DNA of 64,000 nt from Brachypterus glaber (Eukaryota; Arthropoda; Insecta; Coleoptera; Kateretidae), in the NCBI GenBank assembly GCA_958510825.1, contig OY294047.1:45987365-46051364 (forward strand). Reading direction: 5' to 3'. Position numbers and translations under genes: made by a program. The notes beneath the pieces were generated by a model, which saw only the letters and a program-made list of their open reading frames with translations, was not told the DNA's origin and did no database searches. Below, in pieces: positions 5,702 to 63,373 of this stretch (the first letter of the stretch is position 1; each line of letters begins with the position of its first letter).

Positions 5702-8700
5702 TCAAATATAAATAGCATCAGATCCTTTATTTGCCTGGTGTCCGGTGGACACGTACGTATTGGGACTGGCGATATTCTCTGACCAATCAGAGTTGCAGGA
5801 GCGCGGAGAGCTGGACGACCAATGGCCCGGACTTTCCGGACTCGGAGTCGGGAAGTTATCCGGCAACAAGTGATCCGAATGCTGGGAGGGGGGAGTTAAA
5901 TAGTAGGGCTGCTGCTGAAACTGCTGGGGCTGCATGTTAGCAGAAGTCTGTGTGGAAGTCAACCCCGTGGAGTAAGCCATGGGGAGCTCCAAGCCTGTCT
6001 GGCTGAAATCAAAACCCATCTGGAGGTTCTGAGTTTGAGGAACACCACCGTGTTTTTGTTGGGTCGCGGCTCTCATTGCTGCAATATGGGTGGGACTGGT
6101 GGGCAAAGAAGGCCTGGTTTTGGCTGGCGAAGGGGAACCGTTATAGCCTTGTGGAGAAAGCGACATATTCGATTGCACCGAATGAGGGGGCGATTGGTTG
6201 GAGTAAGGAGGACTCAACGTGTTTGGTTGCATCTGTCTTTGTTGTTGGAGCAATATTTGCTCCTGGAAGTTGCCCAAGAAAGCACTATAATTGTCCAGGT
6301 TGAAAGTTTGGATGTTGCTTTTGACGACGTCTTCATAACTCGGTGGCTGTTTATTACCCATCAAACCTTCCAACCCAAGTCCCATGTTTGAGTAAATCGA
6401 AGCTGATTCGTAAGGACTTGGCATGTTAGTCATGGGAGATTCAACTGGACTTAAGGTCGAAGTCATGGAGTCAACGCTCTGTGGAATTTCCGTGTTCGGT
6501 GTATTTTTCTTGGCTTTCTTTATGCTGGGCTTCCGACGTATGCTTCCAGGATTCAAATCGTTCTCGGGACTCGTAGGACCGTTTTGCTTGCTCGGTCTTT
6601 TTGACTTTTGTCTCTTAGGCATAATGACAGTCGGATTTGATAACAATTGTCCGGTAGGAGAAGTCATCATGTTGTTATTGGGGATGACGTTCACCATTTG
6701 TGGACTTCTTGGGACGTGTTCATCCAGTAATCTGACTATATCGTGGTGTAATCTTTCGCTAGCGACATCTCTCGGCAGTCTGTCCATATGATCTGTGATT
6801 TCTCTGTTTGCGTAAGCTTCAAGCAATGCTTTACAAGCTTGATATGAACCTTCACGAGCAGCTAGGAACAAAGGAGTTTCGTCTTTATCATCTTGTGCGT
6901 CTCTGTTAGCACCGTGAGCAAGCAATATATTGACAGCTTCAACATTGTTGACAGCTGCGGCCCAATGTAATGCAGTCTTTCCTGAATTATCAGAAGCGTT
7001 AATATCGGCATCAGCGCTGATTAAATCTTGTACCATGCCTTCTATTGCTAATCTGGCAGCTAAAATCAGAGGTGTAGTTCCTTCGTGCATTCTGGCATTT
7101 AAATTTGTAGCTCTATTTCTCAACAGTATTTGGAAAACACCTAGAGCATCAGCAGCAACTGCAGCGTGCAGGGGAGTTCTACCGGTGTTGTCTTGGGCAT
7201 TAGCATCGGCACCGGCGTCCAAAAGTCTTTTGGCAGCGTCAGCTCGGGCATATCTGGCGGCCAAGTGCAAAGAAGTTTCTCCAGTTTTGTCCATAGTTGC
7301 GTTTAATTCGGCTCCTTGAGCTACCAAATCCTGGATTATAGCCCCAGCCGCTTCGTCTTCAATGTCTTCTCCCGAGTCCATTCCTCCTCCACGTACAGAT
7401 GCTACCATAATAGGCGTCATACCACAAGGCCCTCTAGCGTTGATATCTCCGTGATCGTTACCCTGGGGTGGGGTTAACATAGGCGGAGGTCGCAAATCAG
7501 CTGCTTCCAGGTGATGTTGAGTCCATTCAGCTTCTTCGTACTCGGTAACAGCCGTGTGATCGCTAGCGTAACCAGCTTCAAGAGGTCTAAACCGTTTCGG
7601 TTGCGGCATATCGGATTCATCGTCTGACCATTGAGGCACGTGTCCTTGATTTCCTTGGAAATCCAATTCCATGCCGGGTATTGAGGCGTTTTTGCTCAAG
7701 TTTCGGAGTTCTTGGCCTTCTGGACCACGTCTTCTCGACCTTCTGGTATTCGAGTTTGTCGGTAGGAAACCTTCTGGAAACCATGTTATACCAGCTGCGC
7801 GCTTTCTCTGAGTTTTTACAACCATGAAGGTAACACAAAGAATACCCACAACTAACAGTGCACCAATGAAAATCCATTTTTTCGTCGGTGGACTATCCTC
7901 GTCTGGATCTCCTGTTGTTCCTTTTACTTGATAGATCGGGAATGATTGGGATAGAGTATGTTTAGAAGCACTGGCTGCTAAGTATTCAGCTGCAGCACTT
8001 GCGGTTTGGAAGCAAAATTCGTCATCGGACATCGAGCACTTTCTGTTGTCTATCTCCAAGTATACTTTAATACCAGATTGAGGTTGTTCAGTTATTATAA
8101 CTTGGTACTTTCTGATATAATAATCGTCCTGTATTCCAGAGTTCGTTGTGGATCCCACCCATGGGTAAATCATATCGTTTCCTTGCGGATCCTTTTTAAC
8201 TCTAACTGTCGTTCTTAGCTGATGACTGGTATCCCTCAAGAAGGCGACCAGATTATTTTTGAATCCCTGCATATCCATAAGAACTACCATCGAGATAACT
8301 CCTTCAGCAAGTTCTGGAGCGTTGTTTTCGCAGTCCAAACCATCCCAATTACATTCCGCATTATTGCAACCGTAATCGCAGTGACCGTTGGCGTAATGTT
8401 TTTGACAGTAGGCGTCGTAAATAGGGTTGCAAGGTTGCAAAGATTTCTCGCAATCTCTACCATCAAACAGACATTGTGCGTTGTTGCATTCTTCGTTGCA
8501 AACTCCGTCCATAAACACTTCCCAACATTTTATTGAAGCAGTGCAATTTGCCCAAGGATTGATCCCCAGGGAGCAGTCATTTCCGTCAAAATCGCAGGCA
8601 TACTTGTTACATTCCTCGTCACACTGGAAGTTACCTCGTTTCAAGGGACAGCCTAGTTTCAGGCAATCTTGGCGTTGTTTTTCCAGATCTTTTGCGTAAA

Positions 8701-9681
8701 ACGAGCTGATATCTTGTCTGGGAGCCACAGGTTGTCCTAAACCTCCCGGGGAGTTATGGTCGTATAACTCGCAGTTCTTTCCGACGTGTTTTGGTGGACA
8801 CATACATAAATAATCTCCTAGTTTGTCTATACAAGTAGCATCGGCATGTTGACATGGATTACTGTCACATTCATTCAGTGTGTCTATTTCGCAGTTGGTG
8901 CCAGAAGTTCCCATTGGGCAATCGCAAGCATAGCCTCCTCCATCAGATATTCTACATAACCCTCCGTTTTGACAAGGGCTTGAATCGCAATCATATCCGC
9001 TAAACTCGCAATTTTTCCCATAAAATCCATCTTGGCAGGTACATTTATGACCGGTATGTATAGTGGTGCATACTCCTCCGTTTTGGCAGGGCGATTGAGC
9101 GCAAAAGTTGACTTTTCGCTCACAATGTCTTCCCATATAACCAGCTTTGCAGTTGCAGTGATAATCGTTAACCAATTGAACGCAATCCAGAGTTCCAGCG
9201 TCAGAACAAGGGTTGGATAAACATTCGTTGATATCTCCTTCACAGCGTGGTCCGACGAAACCCGGAGGACATTTGCAATCAAAGCCACGTACTTTATCAA
9301 TACAGGTACCATTGTTATGGCAGGAATCATGTCTACAATCGTTAATGTTCATTTCGCAGATGTATCCCAAAGTACCCGGTGGACAGGAACAGATGAAGTT
9401 GTTGATCAAATCGTGACAGGTTCCTCCATTTTGACAAGGATTGGGTTGGCAATCGTCTATGTTGAGTTCACAATTTTGGCCTTGGAAACCTTTCGGACAC
9501 TGACAGGAGTAGGAGCCCACGAAGTCTCTGCATGTGGCGCCATTTTGACATGGCGCTGATTCGCATTCGTTGATTTCTTGTTGGCAGTACGAACCGGTGT
9601 AACCGTCTAAACAGTGACATCTGTGGGAGTTGCCGATGTTTTCGCAAGTGCCGTTGTTGCATAGAAGTTTGGCGAGAACAC
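5702..9681 (-). CDS. Notch: Notch terminal exon: EGF 29-36, LNR, HD, TM, RAM, ankyrin, PEST, stop
   Basis: This 3980-nt exon codes the last 1325 residues. The acceptor (run of T then CAG) precedes 9681, and its first two bases finish a Gly codon. The end of EGF 29 and EGF 30-36 occupy about 9680-8760. Three cysteine-rich LNR modules run 8665-8330, followed by the heterodimerisation region to about 7890. The transmembrane helix starts at KKWIFIGALL and spans 7876-7814. The RAM WFP motif is at 7783, a nuclear signal PKRFRP follows, and ankyrin repeats span about 7455-6720. Past these are a basic stretch (KRQKSKRPSK), a PPSY box near 6340 (the HECT E3/Deltex-type binding motif in Notch), a modest Gln-rich patch near 6250 (shorter than the fly opa repeat), and a C-terminal degron TPSPES with WSSSSP near 5840. 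The protein ends IYI and TGA at 5704-5702. No RXRR-type furin site is visible in the HD. Confidence 0.98.
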
Positions 9682-9818
9682 CTGAAAAAAAAATACAAAA
9701 ATAAGCATAAGAGGGTAGTAATTGCTGTAATTGAGTTATTGTAATACAATGACTTAAGTGCTAACTCCAAAGGCTGGTAGCCTTAGAAATACTTTTTTTT
9801 GGGAAAGTTGGAACTTAC
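9682..9818 (-). other. Notch intron, 137 nt
   Basis: GTAAGT donor and TTTTTTTCAG acceptor. No other signal is seen. Confidence 0.9.
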
Positions 9819-13129: not shown

Positions 13130-13392
13130 TTTTATTGTAGTAAAAACACCAATTTTATAGCTATGATATGCATATGGTATTTTCATAGCATATAGCATAT
13201 GCATATGGTAATTCATACCATATGGTACAATACCCGTGTCAATATTTAAATATTTAGCTTAAATCGCTCAAAATTATAGCCAGGTTGTCAAAATTTAATA
13301 AAAGTTTTTAAAACTAAAATGTTGCCGATAAAATTTTTATTTTAAAACCGGGTAAAAAATGGTTAATTATACATGTATATTATAATAATGAT

Positions 13393-13728
13393 TTTTATCC
13401 AATAAATACAGATAATAAGACAATTACCAGCTTTATTTTAAATAGATAAACTCAATAATAACCCCCGCGTGGCTTTTACTTTATTGAGTGGATAATTATT
13501 TATTTTACTCACTCAACTGTCACTTGTCAAATTATTTTCTTGTAAATGTCATTAAAATTTTTAATAAAAATATGAATTCCTAAGCTATTTATTGGATAAA
13601 ACCTTGTATGGCACTCATGGGTAAACCGATATTGCCCTCTCGCAAATTAACCTACTTGGCTGACGCCTCGCAGGTTAATTTTCTCATGGGCAATATCTTA
13701 CTTTACCCACTAGTACCATAAATAACTA
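13393..13728 (+). mobile_element. hairpin family A, copy 1 (Helentron-like)
   Basis: Starts TTTATCCAATAAATACAG. About 190 bp on, an inverted copy of the start (CTATTTATTGGATAAAA) is followed by a 115-bp hairpin (TATGGCACTCATGGGTAAA to TTTACCCACTAGTACCATA) and the terminus AATAACTATT. A subterminal inverted repeat plus a 3' hairpin and T-T insertion is the layout of non-autonomous Helentrons. Confidence 0.65.
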
Positions 13729-13928
13729 TTATTTGACTAGATATATAATATTATTTAAAGTCAATAATTTCGGATAGCAACTCCCGAATTTTTGACGTTT
13801 TTTCCCCAAGCCATAATCGTCAAAAATAACATTTAGTTTTTCTACTCTAAATTGAAATCCCCTTATATTTTGACACTGGTCGAAAAATTGTCAAAATTTA
13901 AACGATCTTTACTCTACTAGTCACATAC

Positions 13929-14690: not shown

Positions 14691-14707
14691 GATTTATGCA
14701 AAAAAAA

Positions 14708-15044
14708 TTTTTATCCAATACATACAGATAGTAAGACAATTACCAGCTTTATTTTAAATAGATAAACTCAATAATAACCCTCGCGTGACTTTTACTTTAT
14801 TGAGTGGATAATTATTTATTTTACCCACTCAACTGTCACTTGTAAAATTATTTTCTTGTAAATGTCATTAAAATTTTTAATAAATATATGAATTCCTAAG
14901 CTATTTATTGGATAAAACCTTGTATGGCACTCATGGGTAAACCGATATTGCCCTCTCGAAAATTAACCTGCTTGGCTGACGCCTCGCAGATTAATTTTCT
15001 CATGGGCAATATCTTACTATACCCACTAGTACCATAAATAACTA
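14708..15044 (+). mobile_element. hairpin family A, copy 2
   Basis: Near-identical to the copy at 13393, including the complete hairpin and AATAACTATT end. Confidence 0.65.
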
Positions 15045-15319
15045 TTTTTTTGTGAGAAAGTAAAAAGATCTGATTGAATCAAAGTTTTTCTGGAATTATA
15101 GTCCACAACCTGTGACTAGGTTTTAACTCATCAAGGACTGACCCATACATTTATTGTATAATATATGAAATAATGGTGAGATATTACTATTATCAGTCCA
15201 ATTAATCTGTTTTTACTAAAAAAAAATCAAAAAATTTAAACTTTTTCGCTCGTCGATTTCATATTTGTTGTTGTTAAAAGTGTTCTTGTGACAAAAGTCA
15301 CGTTTAAATGTTGACTTAC

Positions 15320-15556: not shown

Positions 15557-16754
15557 CTGTAACAAGAAAATAAAACATTAATAATACTTGCAATGGGTAA
15601 AAGTGAGAAACTTTAAAACAACAGTCTCTTCCAGGTTTTTCCCGAAAAAAATCAGAAGCAAGATTTACTTGAAATACAACATTGATAACTTTTTTAAGTT
15701 TTAACTCAAGTAATCCACAGTGTGGAATACTTGGGTTTCAATTACTATAGAGAGAATTTGCTTTCGTACAATTTTTAGTCTTTACAAGTTATTAGTGCCG
15801 TACTTTCAAAATAAAGCGTTGGTTGGAAAATATATATAATCCCATAAAACATGTTAAATTCCCTTAGCTAGCTAAATTACTTTTACAGGTCTTCCAGGCC
15901 ACTTGACACGCTGAAATTAATTCGAACTGGCTGTTGAAACGTCAGACGTAAAATAATCCAACACCTTGGTTTGGGTCGGTTTTTTCGCCTTTTTGTTGTC
16001 TTTGATGCTAATAGGAGGGCATAGCCCCTCCACTTAAACGATGAGAATACAATTCTAACAAAAAATATGCCCTAAAAGCTTTAAAAACCCTAAAAACCAG
16101 CCAATAAAAATACAGGACGTACACTTAGCTTCCTGTACGTCGGACGTACAAATAACCTGTTCTAAATATTTTTTTTTAATTGTGCATTGTACACGTTTTT
16201 GAGGTTATTCTTGAAAAATTGGTAATTAGTTCTAAGATGAAACTTGGCCTAATTTTCCCTATTCTTCGAATTAAAAAGAGGTTCTGAATAACCCTATATG
16301 CTAAGATGAAATTGCAAATAACATGAATAATTTTTATATATTAAATATTAATGCAAACAAAATACTCGTATAGTTACTGACAGATTACTATAATAATTCA
16401 AACTTACAATCACAATTTGTATAAATTCCCTATTAATACAAATAGGTATTTACATAACTTACGTATGTAATATGGATAATTATACTATTCGCAGTCTCAT
16501 GACTAAAAGTGTAGAAGAGAAGAGTCCTATTTTTTTAAAAAATTTTTTTTTCGTAAAACAAAAAAAAAATGATTTTTTTTTCAAGTTTTATTTATTTATT
16601 TTTTTTTCATTTTTCAAAGAACTTTTTTAATTATTTTTTTCAAATTTTCTTTTTTTATTTTTATTTTATTTTTTTTTTTAATTTTTAAAAGATCTTTTTT
16701 AATTATTTTTTTTTCAAATTTTCTTTTTTTGCAAAAACAAATAAAAAAAATTAT

Positions 16755-17274
16755 TTTTTCCAACACCTTCACAGAAACACTTGTTTTGAGCACTATTTTA
16801 AATGTCAAAAGTGAGTTTTTTTCCACCAGTGACTAAAAAATTTTTCACCCACTCTTTTACGTACAGCTTTTGATCTCACCCAAAATTAGTTACATACCCT
16901 ATTAATTAAGTATTATAACTATTCTATTAATAGAAGCACGTTAACTAAACCATAACAATTTAAGAAAACCCCAATTTATTCTTTAGTTTTTGAATAAAAT
17001 ACTGTTTTTATTAAAAATTCTGTCATCACCGCGTCCATTTTGACGTTTGTAAGAAATGTAAAACTAGCAATTGTTTATTTTTAATAGGCATACTTAGGCC
17101 ATGGCTACCTATTATTTTAGTATTAAGAAAACTTAATCTTAATATTTTTGGCATAATTTTTCGCAAAATTACAGATTTTTATTTAAAAATAAAAGGTGTT
17201 GGATAAAATTAAATTCTCAACTCGTGTATTAATTGATTTTATCTACTTAATACAATAGTTAAGAAAATAACTAT
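16755..17274 (+). mobile_element. hairpin family B, copy 1
   Basis: Begins TTTCCAACACCTTCACAG. Its inverse AAGGTGTTGGATAAAA lies near the end, followed by a short hairpin (GTGTATTAA..TTAATAC) and AAAATAACTATT. About 520 bp, no coding frame. Confidence 0.65.
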
Positions 17275-17334
17275 TTTTTTTATTTTTTTTTAAGTATTTG
17301 GGAAAATCCAATATACCATTCATGTAAATAGTAT

Positions 17335-17400
17335 ATAATTGAATGCGTAGCATTACATATCTCCACGGCTTGTTTTCTAATACGGGCGTGTTTGTTTAAG
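17335..17400 (+). repeat. short repeat also present inverted at 22190-22225
   Basis: GCGTAGCATTACATATCT plus CACGGCTTGTTTTCTAA; the second half resembles family E (CGGCTTGTTTTCTAAACTT). Confidence 0.4.
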
Positions 17401-17904
17401 TTCGTACGATATCGTAAAGCATATTTTATCTGCAGGCTTTACGATCTAATCTGCATTAGAATTTAATCATTTATCTTTGTACGGAAAAAGAAAAAAATAA
17501 TCGTTATAAATTAGATTTTATGCATTTCTATAAATATTGATGTGAGAATTGAATTTTAAGTTACGCAAAGGGTATGGGATTAATATAATAAACTTAGTGC
17601 ATATTACATCAATGTTTCATAATAGTGACAAATTTTTATCTTAAAAATGTTCATGATTATGTTGCAAAATGACAAGTTTTTTGAATTTCATTTCCAACAC
17701 CAGTTTTTTGGATCATTAAGAATGATTAATTATATTTTTTAGCCTGTATCTTTTGTATTTTGTCTTTTTCCAATTAATTCTCATTTTTTAATGGTCCTTT
17801 AACCATTTCATTAAACGCTTCCTCTACTTCCATTTTACTATTGCTATTGTTTCAATAATTTATTATTTCATCAATCTATTTTCTAATCATCGTACAGAGT
17901 GATA

Positions 17905-17949
17905 TTGGTAGACTGACAGTTTCGGGCTGCTGGCCCTCTTCAGTACCAA
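17905..17949 (-). ncRNA. hammerhead ribozyme motif, copy 1 (type I, short stem III)
   Basis: Read on the minus strand from 17949 to 17905: UUGGUA (stem I) - CUGAAGA (core CUGANGA) - GGGC CAGCA GCCC (stem II) - GAAA (core) - CUGUCAG (very short stem III) - UC - UACCAA (stem I, perfect 6 bp complement). The predicted cleavage is after GUC, between 17911 and 17910. All invariant core bases of the hammerhead are present. The tiny stem III is typical of hammerheads in Penelope-like elements and animal retrozymes, which may cleave best as dimers (family knowledge). It lies in sense orientation inside a Notch intron. Confidence 0.85.
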
Positions 17950-18258
17950 GAGTCAATTCTGCACGCTGATCAAGAAAACTTTTTTAGACTTTATTCGCAA
18001 AAGGAATATAGTCATTAGATTGATGTAGACTTGTGTGCCATCTATTGCTAGATGTAGACAACTACTCATACCTCTCCTAGTCTGGAGACTTTGAATGGCA
18101 AGTTGAAGATTTGTGTGTCTCAAGCACATAGTACCACTAACGTGTGGTTAGACGTAGAATTAGTAAGGATAGAATGGTTTAATTTTAAACAAAGTTATAA
18201 AAATATTAATTTATTATTATTCCATCAATCTATTTTATAATCATCGTACAGAGTGATA

Positions 18259-18303
18259 TTGGTAGACTGACAGTTTCGGGCTGCTGGCCCTCTTCAGTTA
18301 CAA
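18259..18303 (-). ncRNA. hammerhead ribozyme motif, copy 2
   Basis: Same architecture as the copy at 17905, exactly 354 bp away: core CUGAAGA (18297-18291), stem II GGGC/GCCC, GAAA, short stem III, GUC cleavage site between 18265 and 18264. The stem I 5' arm is UUGUAA instead of UUGGUA, so two of six pairs are lost; the core is intact. Activity is probably weaker. Confidence 0.78.
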
Positions 18304-19266
18304 GAGTCAAATCTGCACGCTGATTAAGAAAACTTTTTCAGACTTTATTCGCAAAAGGAATATAGTCAATAGATTGATGTAGACTTGCGCGCCATCTATT
18401 GCTATGTAGACAACTACTCATACCTCTCCTACTCTTGGTAGTAAGGTAATAAGGTCTAGGAAAAGTACTATTTTCCGAGTCGACCTGTAATCTACTATTA
18501 AGAGACGCCCAATTTTGTTCCAAATTGCCTAAATATAATGTACCAAATTTATGGTCGATAGGTCAACGTTAATAATTGCCGGTCGAGACCTAAAAAAGGG
18601 AAACAAAACATATTTTTGTTTTTTAAAAATGCAAAGAACAAAAAAATTTTAGATATTGTGTCATATAATCAGAAATTAGAAATTTTAAAAGGTTCTAAAT
18701 AATCGCAATTGTAATTTAAATTACTTTCTTTAGTAAATTTATCTGAATCTTAAAGAATTTGGTTAAAAACAATTAATAAAAGTAAATCTCTTGAGATTCA
18801 GGAAACGCCGACAAATTCAACATAAGAACTTTTGAATAAATTTAAAACTTTAGTGTGAACGAGAGCAATTACTGCTGGAGAATTAAATCAAAACAAGTTT
18901 AACATGCCGCAAAAAAATAATCGGGAGCGTTTTTAGAGGGATTGTACCGTTATTTAAATTAAATACAAAACCCTTTTTGTGTTAGCATTATAGCATAGAA
19001 ACAACATACCGGGTGACCCACCCAAGGTGACATTATTTTTTTCTTTATTATTTTTTATATTATTATTTAGATAAAAACAATTGTAATAACCACAAGAAAA
19101 AAAATACTAAAATACAGAAACTTTAAACATTTAATAATTTAAAACATATTTTAAGCTACAGGTGTTGAATTAAACATTGTACGGGACGCGTGATATTACC
19201 CATTTAAAAATGAACCAAATGGGTTCTGGCGGGCATTGTCGGTCAATTTTTGTCTTTGGTTTTATC

Positions 19267-19594
19267 TCACTAGTACCGTAAATAACTTTTATCCAATACA
19301 TACAGATAATAAGACAATTACCAGCTTTATTTTAAATAGATAAATTCAATAATAACCCCCGCGTGGCTTTTACTTTATTGAGTGGATAATTATTTATTTT
19401 ACCCACTCAACTGTCACTTGTCAAATTATTTTCTTGTAAATGTCATTAAAATTTTTAATAAAAATATTAATTCCTAAGCTATTTATTGGATAAAACCTTG
19501 TATGGCACTCATGGGTAAACCGATATTGCCCTCTCGAAAGTTAATTTTCTCATGGACAATATCTTACTTTACCCACTAGTACCATAAATAACTA
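19267..19594 (+). mobile_element. hairpin family A, copy 3, behind a partial 3' end
   Basis: 19267-19287 is a lone family A 3' end (CACTAGTACCGTAAATAACT) joined head-to-tail to a copy that starts at 19288. The hairpin loop of this copy is partly deleted (GAAAGTTAATTTTCTCATGG). Tandem insertion is known for Helentron-like elements. Confidence 0.6.
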
Positions 19595-19878
19595 TTTTAA
19601 TTGTTAAGATGTTTTAAGTTTGACAAGAAATAAACGTGGCAACAGTTCCACCTCAAGTAATCTTTTATTACAATTAAATTTGGTAGATATAATTTTTCGA
19701 ACGTAAATCTGGCAATTAAGGAGGACATTTAGCCCAATTTAACGACTTCGAACATAAAAAATCTGCAGGTTAAACTTTTATTACGAGAATTGCCGGATCA
19801 AGTTAATCGAACGCCAATCAACGGACTTTTTCGCTGATTTTATTGAACTTCGATCGGCGATTAAAATGCAGTCGTAGA

Positions 19879-20386
19879 CAGTGGCGTAGCCGCGAGGGCA
19901 AGGGGTTTTAGGCCCCAACATGGAAATTAATTAAGGTGGGCGAGCCAATTATTGCCGCGTTAAGACATCCTATTTTGCTTTCCCATTTTGAATATTTTCA
20001 AAATTTCGGAAAGCCTTGTATTCGTGCAAAAATTTTTAATTTTTTTTGCGTATTTTTGCGTTTTATGACGTTTTATTTCGATATATATATACGCATATAC
20101 GTATACGCGTATCTTTATTCTAAGGGGTAAAAAATAAACAAACTGCAGGAGCTTCAAAACAAATATTACTGCATTTTAAAAAAGATTGCACCCTGACAAT
20201 ATTAGGAGTCCATGTCCAGGGCCGGACATAAGAGGGGTATTGGGGGGGGGGGGTGTATAATAATGAAAATAACTTTTGGCTTACTATACTTTTTAGCGGA
20301 GTAAAACTTTAAAATAACACCAAACAACTTTTTTGCATAATAATAATGCAAAATTTTGCATAAATAATTTTCTGGCTAAGCCACTG
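19879..20386. mobile_element. hAT-like non-autonomous element
   Basis: Terminal inverted repeats CAGTGGCGTAGCC and GGCTAAGCCACTG, the CAGTGGCGTA type common in hAT elements. About 508 bp, non-coding. An 8-bp target duplication is not clear. Confidence 0.5.
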
Positions 20387-21105
20387 ATCGAATGGGCACT
20401 AAGCAGGTTCATTAACGTTACGTGTTGATAAAAAACGAATGGGTTCGATCTTAAACCCATATTTTATTGAGTTTAATTATATATCATACGAAAAAAGATA
20501 ATGCAGCTTTTTTTAATGAGAAATATTTTTACTCATTTAGGATAAATGATTAACATTGTCTCACAGGTAAATTTAAAGTAATTTAGGTTATTATATAGAT
20601 ACTTTTGATTTGGCCCTTTTGGGAAAGTATTTTTAATTTTTTTCATTTTAAATAAAAATCTAAATCTAAAAACAACATTTATGAAGAATATAACTAAAAA
20701 AGTAATGATTTAAAAAAATGATATTGCATCTAACAAAAAATTAGTATAGCTAATTTTATTCACACAGATTAATCGAGTTTATTTTAATTTAAATTTTGTA
20801 TTATTTTATTACATTTTTTGCATTACTTAAAGTAGAGTTAACAGAAATCAATTCCCAACTCACCTACAACTTTTAGAATTTGTAAATTACAAAGATTTAC
20901 TTAACTTCTAGCTGTGATATAATATCACTAATATTAAACCATTGTAAAACTAGCGGAAATTTAATTTAAAAATAGAAAAAAAAAATCAATTTATACAAAA
21001 TTAACACGTGTATATTCTATTTAGTTTTTTAGTAAACTCATGTATTTTTTTGGTTCTTGGAAATTTAAAATTTACAGAATGATTCTAATTATATATTTAT
21101 CCAAT

Positions 21106-21434
21106 ACATTATCTGTATGTATGTATGTAAGACAATTACCAGCTTTATTTTAAATAGATAAACTTAATAATAACCCCCGCGTGGCTTTTACTTTATTGAG
21201 TGGATAATTATTTCTTTTACCCACTCAACTGTCACTTGTCAAATTATTTTCTTGTCATTAAAACTTTTAATAAAAATATGAATTCCTAAGCTATTTATTG
21301 GATAAAACCTTGTATGGCACTCATGGGTAAACCGATATTGCCCTCTCGAAAATTAACCTGTTTGGCTGACGCCTCGCAGGTTAATTTTCTCATGGGCAAT
21401 ATCTTATTTTACCCACTAGTACTATAAATAACTA
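21106..21434 (+). mobile_element. hairpin family A, copy 4
   Basis: TTTATCCAATACATTATCTG start with a small duplication (GTATGTATGTAT) near the 5' end; full hairpin and ATAAATAACTATT end. Confidence 0.62.
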
Positions 21435-22229
21435 TTTTAAACTTCAATTACAATTATTATTCAAAATCATTTGGTTACTATTTTTTATTAGTTTTCCTTT
21501 TTTTATTTCATCATACCAGTTTATTTTGATCGAAATAAAATAATTTTATCTGTATATAACAACATTAGGAAAAGGCCGGCTGGATAAAATTTACCATTGT
21601 ATGGGAGTATGGTAACCGAAGATCATTTTTTCAAAATTACTTTTTAATTTATGTTCAAAATTAATGGAGAGTTCCTACCACAAGCCAAAAATCTTATTTG
21701 GGGCTCTCCATGACTCTGTATAAATATATAATAATAAACAAATAATAATAAACAAATTTTGAAATTATTTTTAAATTATACAATTTTTATAAAACCTAAC
21801 TAAATGTTTAGGTATGTATTTTAGTCTGTTTAATCTTGTTACAATGTTACATTGTCAATGTAATAAATTAAAATTTCAGTGCACACTAACTGACATTGTG
21901 ATATCTAATTAAATAATAATCCAAGTACGACAATAAAGTTCCTACAAAAAATCAAGTTTCAATTGGACGTACTTACATCAAAAATAATTATTCATATCCC
22001 TTTTAAATCCGCACCGTTTTAATGTGCATAAAATACATTCAATAAAATTTTATGCCGCCTGGTAACACCCAGAAACATTTTATTTAAGAGGCTTAAATTA
22101 ACTCTAACTACAAAGTTGTTTTATTTGATTTATAAAAAAAATAAACTAAAATCTTAAAATATACTGAAAACGTCATTAGCAATAATAATAAACAAGCCGT
22201 AAAGATATGTAATGCTACGCATGCCATTA

Positions 22230-22780
22230 TACACGGTGATCAATAACTGGCATGTCAAAATTTAAGAGGTTGTTCTAAATCCAAAAATATCAAAAAAAGC
22301 TTCTATAAAGGTTGGTCCGGAAATGAGCCCTAAGGTCCTAAGGCCCTAAGGTCCTTTAAAAGTGTAATAAAAATAACGTTTTTAATTAATAACTCTGGTA
22401 GCCTCTAAACTAGAGCGACGAGCTTTTGCATGTATACTAGTATTCATAAGGGCAATAAGTTTATGTTAATTAACCTTTTTGATTTTATCTAGAGGCGTGC
22501 CTAGACGGACAAAATATGTGAGGCTTAACACATTTTTGTCCCAAACTTTTTTATGTGTTGGTTTATTGGATTTTTTGTAAAAAATATAGATTCCTTGAGC
22601 AAAAATACATAAAAAATGGCATATAGTGTAACACTGTAGGTGCAACCGTTTTCAAAAAAAAAATGCAATTGTGCCACCAGAAACGCTACTGTTTAAAGGG
22701 CTATTACTCCTTTAATATTAAATTTAGATGTTTTGGTGAAGAATACTTTTTTGCTCAGTTTTAAATGAAGAATTACCCTG
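22230..22780. mobile_element. degenerate TA-type foldback element
   Basis: The right end GAATTACCCTG and left CACGGTGATCA resemble the CAGGGTGATTC termini of the 3121 element. The interior shows similar phrases, but the arms no longer match well. Confidence 0.3.
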
Positions 22781-24135
22781 CAGCATTAACTCCTTGATTA
22801 ATACAATGTAACATTCTTTTCCGTGAGCTAGTTGACACAGTGCTTAACTAGATTGTTTCTTTGTCATCTAATTAACCCGTTTGCTTCCGATCGAAAAATA
22901 CGGTATTTTCCCATTAGAAATACGGTTTAAATATTAACAATTAAATTAATTGGCATCTAGGGTGGTCCAAATTAAAATAACTCAAAATAATTTTTAAAAA
23001 ACGTCAATTTATAGGTTAAAACTGACTAAAACTTAAAATTAAAATGGGTAAAATCATTATAAAAAATATTTTGACGCTTCTTAAAATTAAAACTCTCCTT
23101 GCCTGGTGAATTTCTTAAATTTTTTATGGCAAATTTTGCATTTTTTTGGGAATGAATTAAAATTTAATTACGAACTATGATTGAGTGTATTATTTTATTT
23201 TAGTTTTTTTTTTGTGGTATATTTAAATTATAATAACAATCTGTAATATATGCAATTTATTTCGATATGCTTACAATATCAATAGCAATTTTTTTAATTC
23301 TTAAATTACATTAATCATCGAACTTAAATAGACATAAAAACTACATATCGAATGTGAAGTATCCTTAAAAAAGTGGGTATCTAATTTTATATAATTATTT
23401 GATATTGAATAGAAGAAGTAGCAATTATTTAGAAATTGAAAACCATTATATTTAATATTTATTAATTTGGACCACCCATTCGTGTTTGGGAACTATTTAT
23501 TTATGTGCTTTAGGTTTTTGTTATAGGCGAGAATCTATACATACAGTGTGTTTGACGGAATTACGGTGGTTAGAATTCCAACAATGGTATAAGTGCAAAA
23601 ATGAGATTTTTCTTGTACACGACAATGAAAACTCGTTGTCTTACTTTAAACGTTTCTTTTTAATGGTTTATATTTGCGTTGTACGTTGTTTGCTATCCAC
23701 CGAAAATCTGTTATACATATATCGCATATTTTTATAAAATGTATTTATTAATAAAATTGACTTTATTAAAATACGTTTTTAAATAATTTTAATATTTTTA
23801 AGAAACTTTCGAAAAAGTATCCCATATTTTTTTGCAAAATAAATAAAATTATTTTGGACATTAGCAAAGTAGGCGTGTGAATAGTCGTGATTATATTGAG
23901 TATCATGAATAGAAAAAACTCCGTATTGTGATGTCAGGAAAAACTTGAAGAAGAAGAATTACTTTATTTAAAAACGGCTTCGTGAGAAATTTCAATTTTT
24001 GTCAAAAACTGTTTGGAAAAGTCCCAAAAACAACCTAAAATCAAAAAATCCGGTGTGGTTTGAATTTCCATTTAACTTTGTTTAAGGCTAGCCGTGAGGG
24101 ATTAAAAATTTGCGACAACTGTTTTGAGTAGTGTA

Positions 24136-24843
24136 GGGGCTGTCCATATATTACGTAACGCAATTTTTCAAAAAAATTCCCCCCTCCCCCCTGTGTAACA
24201 AACTGTCACATTTACCAACACCCCCCCCATTTTGTTTCGCAATAAATTTAACTGTATTCTCACTATTGATTCGTTTTTCTCGACAAAACAAACATGAACC
24301 TAAAATATAGTATAACATAACCTTAAAAAAAATTTACACGAAAAAATCACTCAAACTTTAAAAAAATATTCATAATCAATATCACACAGGGAAAAATAAT
24401 AGGTACCTCTTTTTACACTGAGTGTCACATATAACTCGTATATTGTTTAAGCACAGGTACACAAAATAGTACACACATTGGTGTTCTGTGAGTACACATT
24501 CCGCGCGAAAATGTATCATCCCCGATGATTCATCGACAAGATCACGCAAGAACATGGCCGTAAGATTTTTTTTTTAATATCAATGTCAATAGTTTTTTTA
24601 CTGATTACAATATTATTTAAATATGCATAGTTTCGTCAATTTTTGTATGAAAAAGGGAATTATGGGCTAAATAGTAATTTATGTTGAAATAAAAATACAT
24701 CTGCCAAGCTTAGGAAATAAACATTAAATTTATTAAATTCCGTTACGTAACGTTTACCTAGACCCCTCCCTCCCCCCTGTCACAAACTGTAACAATTTCT
24801 CTGACCCCCCCCTAGGCGCGTTACGTAATATATGGACAGCCCC
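24136..24843. mobile_element. 708-bp MITE with GGGGCTGTCC termini
   Basis: Left GGGGCTGTCCATATATTACG and a perfect inverse at the right. Inner arms carry C-rich tracts (CCCCCCTCCCCCCTGT). GTA flanks both ends as a possible 3-bp duplication. Non-coding. Confidence 0.7.
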
Positions 24844-25164
24844 GTACATGATGGTTACATAAAAACTAACTCTCCTCATGGTTTCAATTTGGCATACCTA
24901 ATGAAATTAAAATTAAAATAGCAATTAAAATCATATTTTCTTTATTATTATTCGATCAATTGAGAGTCTCTTTTTTATGCCGTCAAATAACGATGGAGTT
25001 ATTAGCATTCCGTTCAGATATTGATTACAAATATTTACAGCTTTAAAAACTGGCTTGTAATCTTTTTTTGTAGTCCTCTCTGTTTAAAATAGGCCGTGAA
25101 CATAGGTGATGCTTCGCACTTAAAATGTATAAACTTCGAAGTGGATATTGCATAAGTAAATATC

Positions 25165-25684
25165 TTTTATCCAACACCTTCACAGAAACACTTGGTTTGA
25201 GCACTATTTTAAATGTCAAAAGTGAGTTTTTTTCCACTAGTGACTAAAAAATTTTTCACCCACTCTTTTACGCACAGCTTTTGATCTTACGCAAAATTAG
25301 TTACATACCCTATTAATTAAGTATTATAACTATTCTATAAATAGAAGCACGTTAACTAAACCATAAAAATTAAAGAAAACCCCAAATTATTCTTTAGTTT
25401 TTGAATAAAATACTGTTTTTATTAAAAATTCTGTCATCACCGCGTCCATTTTGACGTTTGTAAGAAATGTAAAACTAGCAATTGTTTATTTTTAATAGGC
25501 ATACTTAGGCCATGGCTACCTATTATTTTAGTATTAAGAAAACTTAATCTTAATATTTTTGACATAATTTTTCGCAAAATTATAGATTTTTATTTAAAAA
25601 TAAAAGGTGTTGGATAAAATTAAATTCTCAACTCGTGTATTAAGTGATTTTATCCACTTAATACACTAGTTAAGAAAATAACTA
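25165..25684 (+). mobile_element. hairpin family B, copy 2
   Basis: TTTTATCCAACACCTTCACAG start, inverse AAGGTGTTGGATAAAA near the end, then hairpin CTCGTGTATTAAGTG / CACTTAATACACTAG and AAAATAACTATT. The best preserved copy of the family. Confidence 0.68.
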
Positions 25685-26139
25685 TTTTCACTACTAGCTT
25701 CAGAACATACCATTATTTATTATGTTTTTAGACTGTGAAATCAATTTTCTTCACCTATAGTAATAATAATTTTTTCTCTCCTAGTAGGAGTAAATTTTAT
25801 AAACAATTGATTTCTGTCACTTTAGATGTTTCAGTTCTTTGTGCAATTTTTACTAATTAAACCCAAGAAAATAGCTTTAAATAACTTTTTATTTATTAAA
25901 TATATTTAATTATAATTATTACCAATTAATAGAATCAATAATTAGCTAAATATCATGAAAAAAAATTATGAAAAAACTAAATTTTTAAACGTTAGTTCAA
26001 AGTATTTATTTGAGAAAATGTTATTGATTAAGGCTACTTAATTTTTATAAAAATTTCATGAAATATCATTTCTGTTAATAATTTATTTTATTATTTGAAT
26101 AAAAATAGTTAAATAGTTCTAGTAGTGAAAAAACTAATA

Positions 26140-26265
26140 TATAAACTACGGTAGAGAAGACTATTATAGCCTCACACTCTTAAATCCCTCGCTGTTACGC
26201 AGCTCGGGATTTAATACGCTGGGCTATAAAAAATGTCTTTCCTACCTTGGTATATAATTACTATT
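26140..26265 (+). mobile_element. hairpin family C, 3' end
   Basis: A hairpin from GGTAGAGAAGAC to GTCTTTCCTACC with inner pairs TATAGCC/GGCTATA and TAAATCCC/GGGATTTA, then TATATAATTACTATT. The 5' boundary is unknown. Confidence 0.5.
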
Positions 26266-26426
26266 TTAAAATTTATTTATTTTGTCATTTTTATTCCTAA
26301 AATTTTGACCACTACCTAAATATTATTACCCGCAAATTTAATTTTTAAAAACTGACCCTATAACGTTTTTGTTTATAAATTTATATTTTTGATAATTGGT
26401 AAGATTTTTTCTTTTATTAAAAATAC

Positions 26427-26576
26427 CGTTTTTCGCAAAACTCTCTGAACCAAAGCACGTGTAGCCAAATTTTGGGGTTATGTGCACAGGTTGTGGGGTT
26501 CAATTCCACAACTTTTGCAAATAACCCCACAACTTTTGCGCACATACTGTGGTTCAGAGAGTTTTGCGAAAAAGTA
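26427..26576. repeat. foldback element, arms about 30 bp
   Basis: TTTTTCGCAAAACTCTCTGA at the left, exact inverse at the right; inner blocks AAATAACCCCACAACTTTTG mirrored. TA adjoins both ends. Non-coding. Confidence 0.6.
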
Positions 26577-27323
26577 TCCGAAGTCACCCACACCGTCCGA
26601 TGTCACCCGACTTGACGGTAAATTTTACAAAAATTGAAGAAGATCGAACATTTCTTTCCCTAAAAAAAAAATAAAAAAAATGAGTCTTATTTTTTGAAAA
26701 AAAATTGTTTTGCCCCCCTTAACCCACTCCAATTTCTAACAAAAACAAGGATAAGGAACCTACCTACCAAATTGGAAGTATTGAGTTCAAAGTATTCTAT
26801 TATACTATTTTGGCTATAACAATGTAAAGAGTTATACGCATAACGAGGTATAATTATTAATTATGAACGTTTTAATTATGGCCAAGGTATATATATATAT
26901 ATTCGTGTGTGAAAAAGTGCATACTTGCTAGCAAAAAGTTTGCTGCACCACATCTTGATTTATGACGGTCTAGTAGAAAAAAAGTTAAGTACTATTGGTT
27001 TGGACTTTCTCAAATTATATTATATCGATAGGTTTTCTGCAAAACATCAAGGTATTCTAATAGGTAATCAACTTTCGAGATATTTGTAAAAGAGATTCAA
27101 ACGATTATAATTCAATGATTTAGCGCATTGGACATCTGCGCATACACATTTTTGGTTTTACCCCCATTATTTTTTTCTTACGCTAATAATTCTGTCTTTG
27201 TCACATACGCCATTTTTAACGCTAAATTAGTAATTTCTAAGGACTTTTATTATAGTTGGTAATATATCCAGGCCCAATCTGACAATATTTTCGCTCAACA
27301 AAGTGCCATTTCTTTAAAATTAG

Positions 27324-27592
27324 TTTAGACCAACGAACTAATAACTCTTCTTTCTAGAATACGCATACCGTTAAAATAAAGTATCGCCAACATCTCGGTT
27401 TGTTTGTAAACAAATAGTAGGTATAATCAGGCCTGAACAATAACAATTACCAGTAACTGGCATTGTTGTCTCTGTTAGAACAAAGATGTGCGAGTAAGAC
27501 AGACCAATGTTTATCTTGCCGACGTTTTTGTCAGTTTTAACGAATGAAATGCCTATTCTAGAGAGAAGAGTTATTAGCTCGTTGGTTTGGAC
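27324..27592. repeat. foldback element of about 270 bp
   Basis: TTAGACCAACGAACTAATAA at the left and inverse CGTTGGTTTGGAC region at the right; AACTCTTC/GAAGAGTT and TTCTAGAAT/ATTCTAGAG also pair. Confidence 0.55.
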
Positions 27593-28017
27593 GTTTACTT
27601 TAGGTGCTTAGACTTTCTTTGCACATGTCGATACATTTACTGGGTTGAAGGTAACATGATCCTGCCTCAAGTAAAAAAATTGGAAAAGAAAATTTGCTGT
27701 TTTGTTTCGAGTAATTAAATACGGAGTAATAAAAAACTTTTGGATTTATTTAAGTTATTTTTTTGACACAGAGCTTAACGAGATTCCTGCAAGCATTGTA
27801 TTTTTAGAAGACTATTCTTTGACTGCAAAAACTGTAGGGATCAAAAAAAAAACTTTTACCGCTAAGAAAAAGTACACACAGAACAAATTTTACCACAATG
27901 CTTAAAATCAAGCATATTAGGCAAAATGCTTAAATTTAACCCTCGTCATGCTTAATGTTTAATCCTGAAATCCCGATTCGATTTTAAAGTTTAATTTAAT
28001 TTAGTATTTATTTTAGT

Positions 28018-28215
28018 ATTTAATTTAATATTTAATTTAATATTTAATTTAATATTTAATTTAATATTTAATTTAACATTTAATTTAATATTTAATTTAA
28101 TATTTAAAATAATATTTTATTTAATATTTAATTTAATATTTAATTAAATATTTATTTAATATTTAATTTAAAGTTTATTTTAATACATATTTAATTTCAT
28201 ATTTGATTTAATAAT
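28018..28215 (+). repeat. 12-bp minisatellite (TATTTAATTTAA)n
   Basis: About 16 imperfect units. Confidence 0.8.
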
Positions 28216-28245
28216 TTAACTTAATATTTGATATTGAAAAAAAAG

Positions 28246-28264
28246 TCTCTCTCTCTCTCTCTCT
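28246..28264 (+). repeat. (TC)n microsatellite
   Basis: Nine to ten CT units. Confidence 0.8.
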
Positions 28265-28838
28265 ATTTTTGGCCTTTCCCTTCCGGATAATTAGCCAGTC
28301 AAGTAATAGAACTAATGGGAACAATTGATATTTGCTGTTTTGAAGTTGGTGTACATGCGTACATTAGTTCAAGTGAGTCAAGAATGGTCAACAGTTAACA
28401 CTTAATTTTAATTTTATCTGTTGAAAGTTACAATTGTAACTGTGAACAGATATAATACCAAAATTCAAGTTATTTATCAGTCAAAAAAAAAACGATATTT
28501 CATACATAGTTCTGTTGAAATTAGCTACAAAAATGGTATTCGAATGACCTTGAAGGGGAAAAGTGAGTGATCTTAGACGAAGTGAGATTACAGTCCACTA
28601 CCCTATTACTAAAATATTTATTTATTTTTTCTATTTTGCGTCTCTTATAAGCTCATAATCACACGCATTTTGCGTGTTCTTATAGGCCCATAAGAGGTCT
28701 CTATTTTTTTCTTTTGGGTTGGCAACAGACAAATTTTAAACATGGCGAAAACTGTAATGCCAATTCGAAACAAAAATCCCTAAATCAGTCATCAATTTAA
28801 AATTTTAGAGCAAAAATAAAAAATTGTATAAAGCACTC

Positions 28839-28952
28839 GTTTCATAACACGTTTTTAGCGCACTAGTACTTTAGAAAACTCGCCGCAAGTCCAAACTTGT
28901 ACTCGTGCGCTAAAAACGTATGTTATGAAACTAGTACTTTAATATACTATTT
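28839..28952 (+). mobile_element. hairpin family E, full hairpin
   Basis: TTTCATAACACGTTTTTAGC at the left pairs with GCTAAAAACGTATGTTATGAAA at the right, around CTCGCCGCAAG; then CTAGTACTTTAATATACTATT. Partial copies are at 1571 and 58230. Confidence 0.55.
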
Positions 28953-29882
28953 AAGTACATATTTACAAATACATACTTATTTTAAACCTACATACATTCT
29001 CAATTAATATGGGTTACATTTTATGGCATTAAGGTAGTTGGTATGTTTAAGGAAGGTTGGTCCGTAACCATTATTGTTATTATTATCATCCATTTCATAG
29101 AGTAACTGCGTTAAAGTACAGTTTCAGAAACTGGTTTTAATAAAATTTATCATTTTCTGGCAATAATATTAATGCGCGTTTTTTGTTTTTTTGGTCTGCA
29201 ATTATGCCACTGTTAGTCGGCCGCTTTTTTTCGATTATATTTTATATACTTTTATAATAGGAGGTTATGCCGAAAAATATATTCTTTCGATTTTGCTCAA
29301 AAATTTAGAACTTTAACGGTGGATCTTGCTATAGTAGATGCCAGAGATATAGAAGAATGTTTACATTTGAAACAGATTAATGTGAAACAGAGGCGTAATT
29401 AATTTTTTATTATGTTAAGTACTTAGTAGACATTCTGATTGGACAACTGGTGGCAATACACCTTGTCACGTCCCAAAAAAACGTTCGCTGCTAAAAAATT
29501 CTTATATTTGAGTCTACAAAATCGTAAAATTTAAATGCCTTCTAATCTTTGGCAAAAATAGATATTGGTGTTTAATAACAACTAATAAATTTAATTTGAA
29601 CGTCCATCCGTTCGAAGGTTTGTCACAAAAATCCCGTTACACGATTAAAAGAAAAACCTCATCTAAATAGTTATAAGTATTTATGAACCGTAGAAGATTG
29701 TTGCTGGTATTATTTAGATTCATTATTATAATGGCGGAGAAATGCCAGAAGCGATTCACGATTGTTTTTCTCTAGTATTTTATTCGTGCCATGCAACAAG
29801 GATCCAACAATATATAGAGACCCTTTCAACGTTTTTTCTGGTTAACTAGGTGCTACATTTAAAAAGTGCGGTTATTTTAGCG

Positions 29883-29952
29883 AGGTATTTTTTTACGGTT
29901 ACGGAGGGCGCAACTCGACTTTCAGCGCCCCGTGTAACCGTACCAAAATACC
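29883..29952. repeat. strong hairpin, arms about 28 bp
   Basis: AGGTATTTTTTTACGGTTAC and AACCGTACCAAAATACCT, with GGGCGC/GCGCCC inside. Confidence 0.6.
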
Positions 29953-31589
29953 TGAAAATTCATAATATATAAAACTTAGAGAATTTCAAGAGCTACAAGT
30001 TTTCTCATAACCACCTCTATCCTCCGACGAATAATTTGGCTGGAAAATAGAAAAAACCAATTTCACCCCCAACATGGCTATTTTTGAATATAATCCGATT
30101 GTTATTAATATAATAAAAAAATGATCCAAATAAAAATTGTTGTAAATTTGCTCCTTAACAAAATTGGTTATATGAATTTTTATCGTAAGATGTATATTTA
30201 GCGAGATAACCGCACGTACCCCTTTAATCCAAGATGGCGGACAGTTCCCATATCAAATTTATGGGCAAGAATGTGATTTCTTCATCTACTCCGCGGGGGA
30301 CACTTAACTGCGTCAAAAGTTCTAACTTGTAATTTTTTTTCTTTCTTGTATTGAATATAATCTAAAGTCGTGACATTATAAGAATGCGAATGCGGTCCGT
30401 ATCAAGTAGTTCCCTATACCGGCTGAAGTGTGGATTCGACTAATATTTATAAAATCACTTGCAAATCACAGAAAAAATAAATGAAATGACAAAACACGGC
30501 GCCTATGAGATGTTGACTGTACACATTTTAAGTTACGACGTGCCGTTCGCTGATATTTTTGTAGAATTCCTTTAGAGTGAGCGCAATTTCCTATGGACCT
30601 ACGGTGTATCTTACTTCAACCAACGTTTTAGCGCTCACTTCGTCATACGCCATAGTAATAAAAGAGATAGATAATATTAAGTTTGTCCGTGATAATTCCT
30701 ACCATTCGCATTCTTAAAAAGACAGGACTATAGTCATTGGGCTAAAGTGTACTAGTAGTGAATCGTTACAAAATACTTGTACACGGAGGTTTTTGTATGA
30801 CTTCCGAGATATTTGACATATGTAAATACATAGTAGGTAACATTTTTGAGCTTTCCGATAAGATTTCTGAGATTTCTGAAACATATAATCTTAGTTTTGT
30901 TTATGGGTTATTAAATTCACTATAATATTTAACAATCGGTTTTAAACTAAACTGTATCGGTTGGTTGCAATTTTCTTTATTCAAATTGTCGTAAATTGTC
31001 TCATACTGCATAACATTATTCACTTAAGTTACTTCTCTACTTAAGTCACGTGACGGGATGTCAATTTTTCCTATTAGTCGTGGAATTACAGAAGCTTATG
31101 TATTTGCTAGCATTAATAATGATTAATATGTATTAAAGATAGTATTATAGGGGATAAATCGATTGAAGTATATAATGTTAATGTCTAAAAAACAAACAAA
31201 ATTAAACTAAAATCTATCAGTATTATATCTGATCTTGTTTGTATTATTAGTAATTAGTAGTTAGGATTCAAGACTACAGATGCACATTATGTTAGTTTGT
31301 CAGCCACCCGACCGATCTACCGGTGGATCAAGTCTGAAACTGAAAAAGTAAGTAAATGCAATTTAGATTTTTTAGCTAAGTTTTAGACCTTTGCGTTATT
31401 CGACTACTAGTTATATGAAAAACATTTTCAATTAGAAGAAAAAGTAGCTACTTATATTCTGCCATAGTTGAATCTATAGTTAAGGCAAGAAAGTCGAAAG
31501 TTTGAAGAAAATGTTATTCAAAATGAGTAATTATCTAGTTTATGAATGCAGTTCATTTTGCCTGTCTACATTTATTAATATTTGTTTAT

Positions 31590-32610
31590 GTATCTAATGA
31601 GTTTTACTAATTCGACGTCATTTTAAAATAATTACAACGTAATTAATATTGCTAGCAATTGCTCGGTTTACGCCCTTTTTTCCATCGATTCGTTTCTGAT
31701 TAATTCACAATTTTAAAATTAATTATTATTATATCAAAAATATTATAGATACACAGTAAACTAAACAACAATATATTATCTCTATGATGTGCCGGGAGGA
31801 AAATGTCAAAAACAGATTTAAAATAGATCTAAACGCTATAAAGAAATATTGAGAATATAACTCGTAATGTGTTTCCATTTGGGAAAAAATGTTTGCCATT
31901 GTCTGAAACCATCCTCTCAGATTTTAAAAGTTATAAAGTAAACGCAGTTTTATGAACTAGTATAACTAGGATAATGAGCCATAACGCCCTTGTTCATTTT
32001 CTACATTTATTATTATAATTGTTTTGTTTATGTATCTACTAATTCGACGTCATTTAAAAATAATAGCTTAATTAATATTGCTAGAAATTGCTCGGGTTCC
32101 GCCCTTTAATGATTCTTACATCGTTCGAATTCATAACGCATTCACGTAGAATCGGAAAATGCTCTTGAGCAAGCTTCTTTATTAGGGCAAAATCTGACAT
32201 CTCGTCTTATTATTTTTTGCAGCGATCCGCTTCTAAGTGTACTAATTAATTTATGATAAAAATATTCATTTCAAAGAAATCGTTATTACATGATTATTAT
32301 GTCAATTTGTATTATATCTACACTGTAAACTGAAATAAAATAAATATCATATCTGATGTACCAAAAGAAGAACTATTACTCCAAATCTGGCCCAATCTTA
32401 AAACAAGAAAGTATGGATCTGTGGAAGTTAGGAAAAATTGCGTACCGTTGTCTGAAATTAGCTACTGAGATTTCCTTTAAAAGTTTAAACAGTTTTTTTT
32501 ACAGTTGAAATAACTTGAGGTCTGTGGAAGTTAGGAAAAATTGCGTACCTACCGTTGTCTGAAATTAGCTACTTAAAAGTTTTAACAGTTTTTTTTACAG
32601 TTGAAGATTT
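31590..32610 (+). repeat. degenerate direct repeats (two scales)
   Basis: 31590-31690 recurs at 32025-32110 (ACTAATTCGACGTCATTT, TTAATATTGCTAG, AATTGCTCGG). Nearer, 32415-32500 recurs at 32520-32605 (CTGTGGAAGTTAGGAAAAAT, CCGTTGTCTGAAATTAGCTA). No coding frame is apparent. Confidence 0.55.
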
Positions 32611-34059: not shown

Positions 34060-34190
34060 TACTACCATGCTAAGCACAGAAGTGGTAACATGTATTTTGC
34101 ACATTTGGAGATATTAACAGTTTTTGGAGTCATAACTCATTTTTGACAAAAAAGTAAGTTACCACCTCTGTGCTTAACACGGCAGTGTTT
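34060..34190. repeat. small foldback, arms about 28 bp
   Basis: TAAGCACAGAAGTGGTAAC and GTTACCACCTCTGTGCTTA. Confidence 0.6.
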
Positions 34191-36832: not shown

Positions 36833-37303
36833 AAACGATGAAAACGAAATAATCTATATTATCGATTGATATCTTTAAATTTTCAGTAAAGAGTTGACTT
36901 TGGAATGCGAAGTATTTTATATCTCTACATCTTGCTTGATGCTTACCTCCTGGTGTTAAAAATTATAAAACATGTTGATAGAATTTGAAAAATAAATATT
37001 ATAAATTGTACAAGTTGTATCTAATACTTCTGTAACAGAAGTAATTATTTTACGATACTACTGTATAAATTATACAACAGCAGTCATTAACAAGTACTAT
37101 TAGGCATCGCATTTTTTTTAAATATACCTGCACATGCAAAAAACTATTAAATTTTATAAACACGAATTAACAATCTGGTATTTTTGCAGTAATATTTGCT
37201 CTAAATATAATGACAAAAAATGAGTTAAATTTTAGTACGTGACTAAAATTTCCCTTACATCATCCTTATGCCTGAGTAGTTAAGACCTCTTTCAGATCAC
37301 ATA

Positions 37304-41862: not shown

Positions 41863-42139
41863 TCTCTATTGTAATAAGAAGTGTATTACTTATGGTGGAA
41901 GACAACAGACATTTTAAATTATAATATTTTATATTCAAAAATTTTTTATGTTAAATTTTAAAACCTTAGAGTTTTTAAAACAATAATGAGGTTATTTGGT
42001 TTGAAGTAGTTATAATGCACCGTTTGCGAAAAAAAAACAATTTAAACTGGTTTTGTTTTTTGGAGAAATTCTCGTTTGATTACATAATTATGTATACCAA
42101 AATGGATTTGACAAAAAAAAACAAAATCAGAAATTTGTA

Positions 42140-63320: not shown

Positions 63321-63373
63321 TATAACATAATCATTGCAGAGTTTACACAATATTCCTTTTTTACTGAGCATAT

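Follow-up and report, generated by a model that had tools for sequence, protein, structure and literature searches.

Paired hammerhead ribozyme motifs in a Notch intron of the beetle Brachypterus glaber, the probable remains of a retrozyme-like insertion

Why an intron of the Notch gene in an insect should carry two hammerhead ribozyme motifs in tandem is the question raised by a locus in the beetle Brachypterus glaber (Coleoptera; Kateretidae). The motifs are located on the minus strand of a 64,000-nucleotide stretch of DNA, here called the window (GenBank assembly GCA_958510825.1, contig OY294047.1, positions 45,987,365 to 46,051,364), and were noticed in a first-pass annotation made from the letters alone. 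The two motifs, the tandem unit to which they belong, a near-palindromic minimal stem III, the strand and the intron can be seen directly in the DNA. Taken together with the evidence presented below, these features make it likely that some 1.6 units of a non-autonomous retroelement, of the animal retrozyme kind which lacks long terminal repeats (non-LTR), are inserted in sense orientation in the Notch intron and have partly decayed.

The minus strand reads CTGAAGA-GGGC-CAGCA-GCCC-GAAACTGTCAGTC both at 17911-17943 and at 18265-18297, with a spacing of 354 bp, and the two full-core hammerheads were found at the place and spacing that had been annotated. Copy 1 (17905-17949, minus strand), the 3' copy in the transcript, was identified by a motif search and by the Rfam model RF00163, and it contains all features of a type I hammerhead, namely CUGANGA, GAAA, UH and three stems, with the opening at stem I. 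Its stem I is formed by 17944-17949 and 17905-17910, the core CUGAAGA by 17937-17943, stem II with the loop CAGCA by 17924-17936, and stem III with the GUC by 17911-17920. The stem I pairing UUGGUA/UACCAA is perfect over 6 bp, as had been noted before. Copy 2 (18259-18303, minus strand) comes first in the transcript, on the 5' side, and shares its core and its stems II and III with copy 1; its core is intact, with all that a hammerhead core requires, and its stem I (UUGUAA/UACCAA) is damaged, two of the six pairs being broken. Stem III is minimal (ACU/AGU, 3 bp with the loop GUC, or alternatively 4 bp closed by a single base). The ACUGUCAGU stretch at this position is nearly self-complementary, so that two copies of it can form 8 pairs around a central U-U mismatch. 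With this combination, the motifs resemble hammerheads which cut as dimers. A distal part of stem I is predicted from the fold of copy 1, with CGUGCAGA (17958-17965, minus strand) as the 5' strand and UCUGUACG (17891-17898, minus strand) as the 3' strand, and the same CGUGCAGA/UCUGUACG helix is predicted in both motifs. Stem I would therefore consist of two helices and an internal loop, like in hammerheads with contacts between loops I and II.

The host gene was identified by the minus-strand open reading frame (ORF) 5702-9757, which carries EGF, LNR, NOD, NODP and ankyrin domains and has Notch as its top matches among solved chains. EGF repeats are present in exons upstream of this ORF. The intron with the element (15557-35182, minus strand, 19,626 nt) is of the GT-AG type, with the donor GT at 35182-35181 (CCTG/GTAAGT) and the acceptor AG at 15558-15557 (TTACAG/GATTC), and the reading frame continues across the junction (...CVCMPG/FTGTQC...). 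The domains, the chain matches and the in-frame splice junction thus bear out the earlier assignment of the motifs to a Notch intron and to the strand that is transcribed. Inside the intron, the cleavage position of copy 2 lies 16,917 nt past the donor, and that of copy 1 lies 2,354 nt ahead of the acceptor. The gene appears to be arthropod by its resemblance to Drosophila Notch. A literature search for work joining retrozymes and Notch found nothing, and 19 papers mention both hammerhead ribozymes and Notch.

Both motifs are part of a direct repeat that extends beyond the span 17905-18303 given in the first-pass annotation. The repeat copy with hammerhead 1 is located at 17860-18083 and the one with hammerhead 2, a partial 5' unit, at 18214-18435 (both minus strand). 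They are 94.2% identical, 13 of the 224 aligned columns being different (11 substitutions and one 2-nt gap), and the differences include both changes in stem I of copy 2. In transcript order, the partial unit with copy 2 is followed by the full unit with copy 1, so that a unit of 354 bp is present about 1.6 times. From one canonical cleavage position to the other, the predicted 354-nt unit comprises 17911-18264 (minus strand), and the rest of it, 18084-18213 (minus strand), is single-copy, with no second copy within the window. The repeat was not listed by Tandem Repeats Finder at the settings used. A unit of 354 bp with one type I hammerhead is within the range of 150-450 bp published for metazoan retrozymes. 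The GC content of the unit, 35%, is below the retrozyme limits of 50% and 45%, but that of the window itself is 30.8%, so the low value says little. The longest ORFs (stop to stop) overlapping the element have 60-74 amino acids, and Pfam at E 0.05 gave no domain in three ORFs overlapping the element or in seven others examined; with such short ORFs and no Pfam match, the element is non-coding, as metazoan retrozymes are. An imperfect hairpin at 18430-18500 (-12.7 kcal/mol) abuts the 5' edge of the element and is missing from the other repeat copy.

The frequency of such motifs by chance was estimated on dinucleotide shuffles, with both strands searched. At the strict setting (stem II at least 4 bp, stem III at least 3 bp, stem I at least 4 bp), the motif occurs once in the 64-kb window, as copy 1, and in none of 200 shuffles. 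A looser setting (3,2,4) gave a mean of 0.045 per shuffle and the loose setting which catches both copies (4,3,1) a mean of 0.1; an IUPAC pattern had 2 matches in the window and 0 in 100 shuffles. From the strict result, a chance motif was rejected. An ordinary local tandem duplication with hammerhead-like letters present by chance would agree with the single locus known and with the absence of an Rfam match at the gathering score. However, copy 1 has all core positions, the stems and the cleavage triplet, and a duplication only copies a motif, so that the first one must still arise by chance, at a frequency for which 0 of the 200 shuffles is the measure. This explanation is therefore considered very improbable.

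Folding calculations were also carried out. The predicted fold of the 354-nt unit is more stable than those of its shuffled versions (z -3.86, 0 of 100 shuffles; z -4.33 in a second run), with 61% of the predicted fold being paired, and the opposite strand of the unit has a folding z of -2.91. For stem III, an energy of +2.1 kcal/mol was obtained as a monomer hairpin, as compared to -9.7 kcal/mol as an intercopy ACUGUCAGU duplex. The unconstrained minimum of the tandem transcript is -118.4 kcal/mol. When hammerheads were enforced, values of -110.2 kcal/mol for copy 1, -104.8 kcal/mol for copy 2 and -98.5 kcal/mol for both as monomers were calculated, while both cores in the dimer form gave -108.8 kcal/mol, an advantage of 10.3 kcal/mol over the two monomers formed together. 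In the modelled dimer, the copy 1 core with its perfect stem I would face 18264/18265, and the copy 2 core with its damaged stem I would face 17910/17911.

A number of results weigh against a retrozyme-like insertion. Of 30 control stretches of 354 nt from elsewhere in the intron, three have a lower folding z than the unit, and the minimum-energy folds pair the core ACUGA with UCAGU in each motif, which is an inactive form. Since the folding program gives no credit for the non-canonical hammerhead core, the energy gap to this inactive fold is overstated to some degree. No target-site duplication, which for retrozymes should be longer than 4 bp if present, was found at the repeat edges, these being uncertain and lying in AT-rich sequence; the longest word common to both flanks has 7 nt and is located 31 and 18 nt outside the repeat edges. 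Further loci of the unit were not found within the window, and the element had no match in the collections phages, viral_contigs and genome_contigs, which are not meant for animal genomes. The exact and the loosened motif likewise gave 0 matches in viral_contigs and genome_contigs, and a 22-base piece of the unit 0 in genome_contigs. An empty site within another repeat of the window was considered and rejected, as the repeats at 16741-17277 and 19281-19596 miss the flanks of the element. Finally, a whole-window Rfam scan reported no family at the gathering score, which for RF00163 is 34 bits.

An Infernal search with the Rfam type I model had been proposed together with the first-pass annotation, and its outcome was divided: the motifs stay below the gathering score, and RF00163 is matched on short stretches. 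For a 901-nt stretch searched in Rfam to E 10, no hammerhead was listed. A shorter input relaxes the Rfam search filters. With 86 nt around copy 1, the sole Rfam match was RAGATH-1-hammerhead (16.5 bits, E 0.77); with 56 nt around copy 1, RF00163 (Hammerhead_1) was matched at full length with 21.4 bits (E 0.0014); and with 86 nt around copy 2, RF00163 was matched with 15.0 bits (E 0.28). Rescaled to the whole window, the 21.4 bits correspond to an E of about 0.0004 for RF00163 alone (0.0014/4227 x 64000/56) and of about 1.6 over all families. The covariance model alone is therefore insufficient, and the case is made by the motif, the tandem layout and the shuffles. A pattern of only the core and stem II matched three viral contigs (L001, L002 and L003), one of which (L001:1852-1930) contains a motif that, judged by eye, is a type I hammerhead with all its parts and an extended stem III, and that is also below the Rfam gathering score. 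Since this motif is likewise unreported, the Rfam negative weighs little. As a relative of the beetle element L001 was rejected, stem II being common to both and stem III being different. The gathering score of Rfam can miss such motifs, and scans which rely on it may undercount them.

For the preferred retrozyme-like insertion, the course of events is taken from published retrozymes, on which cleavage, circle formation and mobilisation are modelled. When the element was active, its hammerheads would have processed RNA with tandem units to monomers of 354 nt. This would work best if two copies act as a dimer, their ACUGUCAGU stretches pairing with each other to give one long stem III. A host RNA ligase would then close the monomer to a circle. 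Another element, probably a Penelope-like one, would provide the reverse transcriptase (RT) that copies the circle for more than one round, with the resulting cDNA being inserted. Because cDNA made by more than one round on a single circle gives identical copies, both copies were presumably identical at insertion and have diverged since, so that the differences between them probably arose after insertion; a mixed template is the alternative. Both the divergence of the copies and the damage to stem I point to an insertion that is old and decaying.

As to the present activity in the Notch pre-mRNA, the copy 1 core could act on the site next to it or, within a dimer, on that of copy 2; the copy 2 core is probably poor. 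Dual cleavage with the release of a 354-nt RNA, as proposed in the first-pass annotation, is possible. The 5' ends named there, 18264 and 17910, are the canonical hammerhead cleavage positions; the claim itself is weaker than it was put, since two of the six stem I pairs of copy 2 are broken, stem III has 3 bp (or 4 bp around a single-base loop) and an inactive fold is predicted. The element in its present state is expected to cleave slowly or not at all and to affect Notch little.

The tandem layout had at first been likened both to animal retrozymes and to Penelope-like repeats. The likeness to retrozymes is upheld by the anatomy of the element and by what has been published on animal retrozymes (PMC7229834). 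An autonomous Penelope element is unsupported, as Pfam recognised no domain in any of the 10 ORFs examined, and a coding Penelope element adjoining the repeat was rejected on the same result. It was further considered whether a Penelope-like element (PLE) left the repeat behind as a remnant of its pseudo-LTRs after losing the protein-coding part. In PLEs, the tandem pseudo-LTRs contain type I hammerheads of minimal form, and AT-rich targets are preferred (PMC11167929, PMC7761336); the element has a minimal stem III and AT-rich flanks. However, the 224-column repeats are just 130 nt apart, and neither an RT nor a GIY-YIG domain was found among the 10 ORFs given to Pfam, three of which overlap the element. 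In addition, PLE motifs are described as usually being without helix III and tertiary contacts (PMC7761336), whereas the element has a stem III of 3 bp and, by prediction, a stem I in two parts separated by an internal loop. A PLE remnant is therefore regarded as unlikely.

The sense orientation in an intron of a coding gene, 2.35 kb ahead of the acceptor, and the completeness of copy 1 would also be in agreement with a domesticated intronic ribozyme which tunes Notch splicing, a role that was proposed for the hammerheads of RECK and C10orf118 and put to the test for the hepatitis delta virus (HDV)-like ribozyme of Cpeb3. Precedents for such a domestication have been described (PMC3088659, PMC10919898), and a ribozyme that cleaves rapidly enough within an intron was reported to be able to change how the host gene is spliced (PMC10919898). 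Against this stand the damage in copy 2 and the one-in-two chance of a sense orientation. A run of 61 columns without differences over the core is within chance under random placement (P 0.20) and hence gives no evidence for selection on the hammerhead, which was rejected. A domesticated ribozyme is thus hardly to be expected at this locus. The same low standing is given to an asymmetric dimer in the Notch pre-mRNA, in which the copy 1 core would cut both sites and the last long intron stretch, would give a 354-nt circle per transcript, and would couple the splicing or output of Notch to a retroelement; we consider this a most improbable course. The insertion in Notch alone is no proof of a role for Notch.

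Other repeats were identified in the window. A dispersed repeat of about 0.5 kb is present in three copies with 94-96% identity (16741-17277, 25152-25688 and 41356-41863), all of them in Notch introns, and the copy at 16741-17277 is located 0.6 kb from the hammerhead element. Five direct copies of about 0.32-0.35 kb, which are 86-97% identical (13387-13730, 14702-15048, 19281-19596, 21128-21440 and 40345-40666), possibly represent a short mobile element. A 0.7-kb repeat (37301-38003 and 62600-63324, 90% identical) has inverted ends with arms of about 250 bp, like foldback elements or miniature inverted-repeat transposable elements (MITEs). On the plus strand, an ORF stretch at 59575-60026, without a match in Pfam, is what we take to resemble the tail of a non-LTR retrotransposon RT.

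Among known systems, the animal non-LTR retrozymes consist of tandem repeats, 150-450 bp long and ranging from dimers to multimers, which bear type I hammerheads, have a low GC content and lack LTRs (PMC7229834). Their RNA circles have about 170-400 nt, are likely closed by tRNA ligase and are probably mobilised by Penelope elements (PMC7229834). Retrozyme motifs with a short helix III were described to work better as dimers, and insects are among the carriers (PMC7229834, Cervera and de la Pena 2020). The beetle element agrees with the metazoan retrozymes in its 354-bp tandem unit, its low GC content and its type I motif, but it comprises only about 1.6 units and its 5' motif is damaged. Efficient cleavage as a monomer is the rule for the published retrozyme motifs of invertebrates (PMC7229834), whereas stem III of the element looks nearer to the weak amphibian ones.

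A palindromic stem/loop III and an action as a dimer have been published for repeat-borne type I hammerheads, including one from mosquito (PMC3088659). By description, stem/loop III of the repeat hammerheads from Aedes aegypti and Nematostella is nearly self-complementary, as it is here; the Aedes palindrome forms a 10-bp stem, while that of the element forms 8 bp with the central U-U mismatch (PMC3088659). Repeat-borne motifs with mispairs were termed cryptic mutants in the same source, and its criterion of multiple mispairs in short stems would exclude copy 2 but retain copy 1 (PMC3088659). The hammerheads of PLE pseudo-LTRs (Penelope motifs are described in PMC6155905, PMC7761336 and PMC11167929) are minimal type I motifs in tandem, as in the element; in contrast to these, the element has a stem III and a predicted distal stem I, and no RT or GIY-YIG domain in the ORFs examined. 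The intronic hammerheads of amniote RECK and C10orf118 are in sense orientation like the element, but they are single and conserved, while the element is a tandem repeat. The hammerhead of the pDo500 satellite from Dolichopoda cave crickets is, by description, an arthropod repeat too, but belongs to a satellite family (PMC2837043). If the retrozyme-like reading is correct, the locus adds one more dated, decayed mobile repeat with ribozymes, located in sense orientation in a developmental gene, in an intron in which its cleavage would be measurable. The kind of element is already known, and the one in B. glaber would be a further member.
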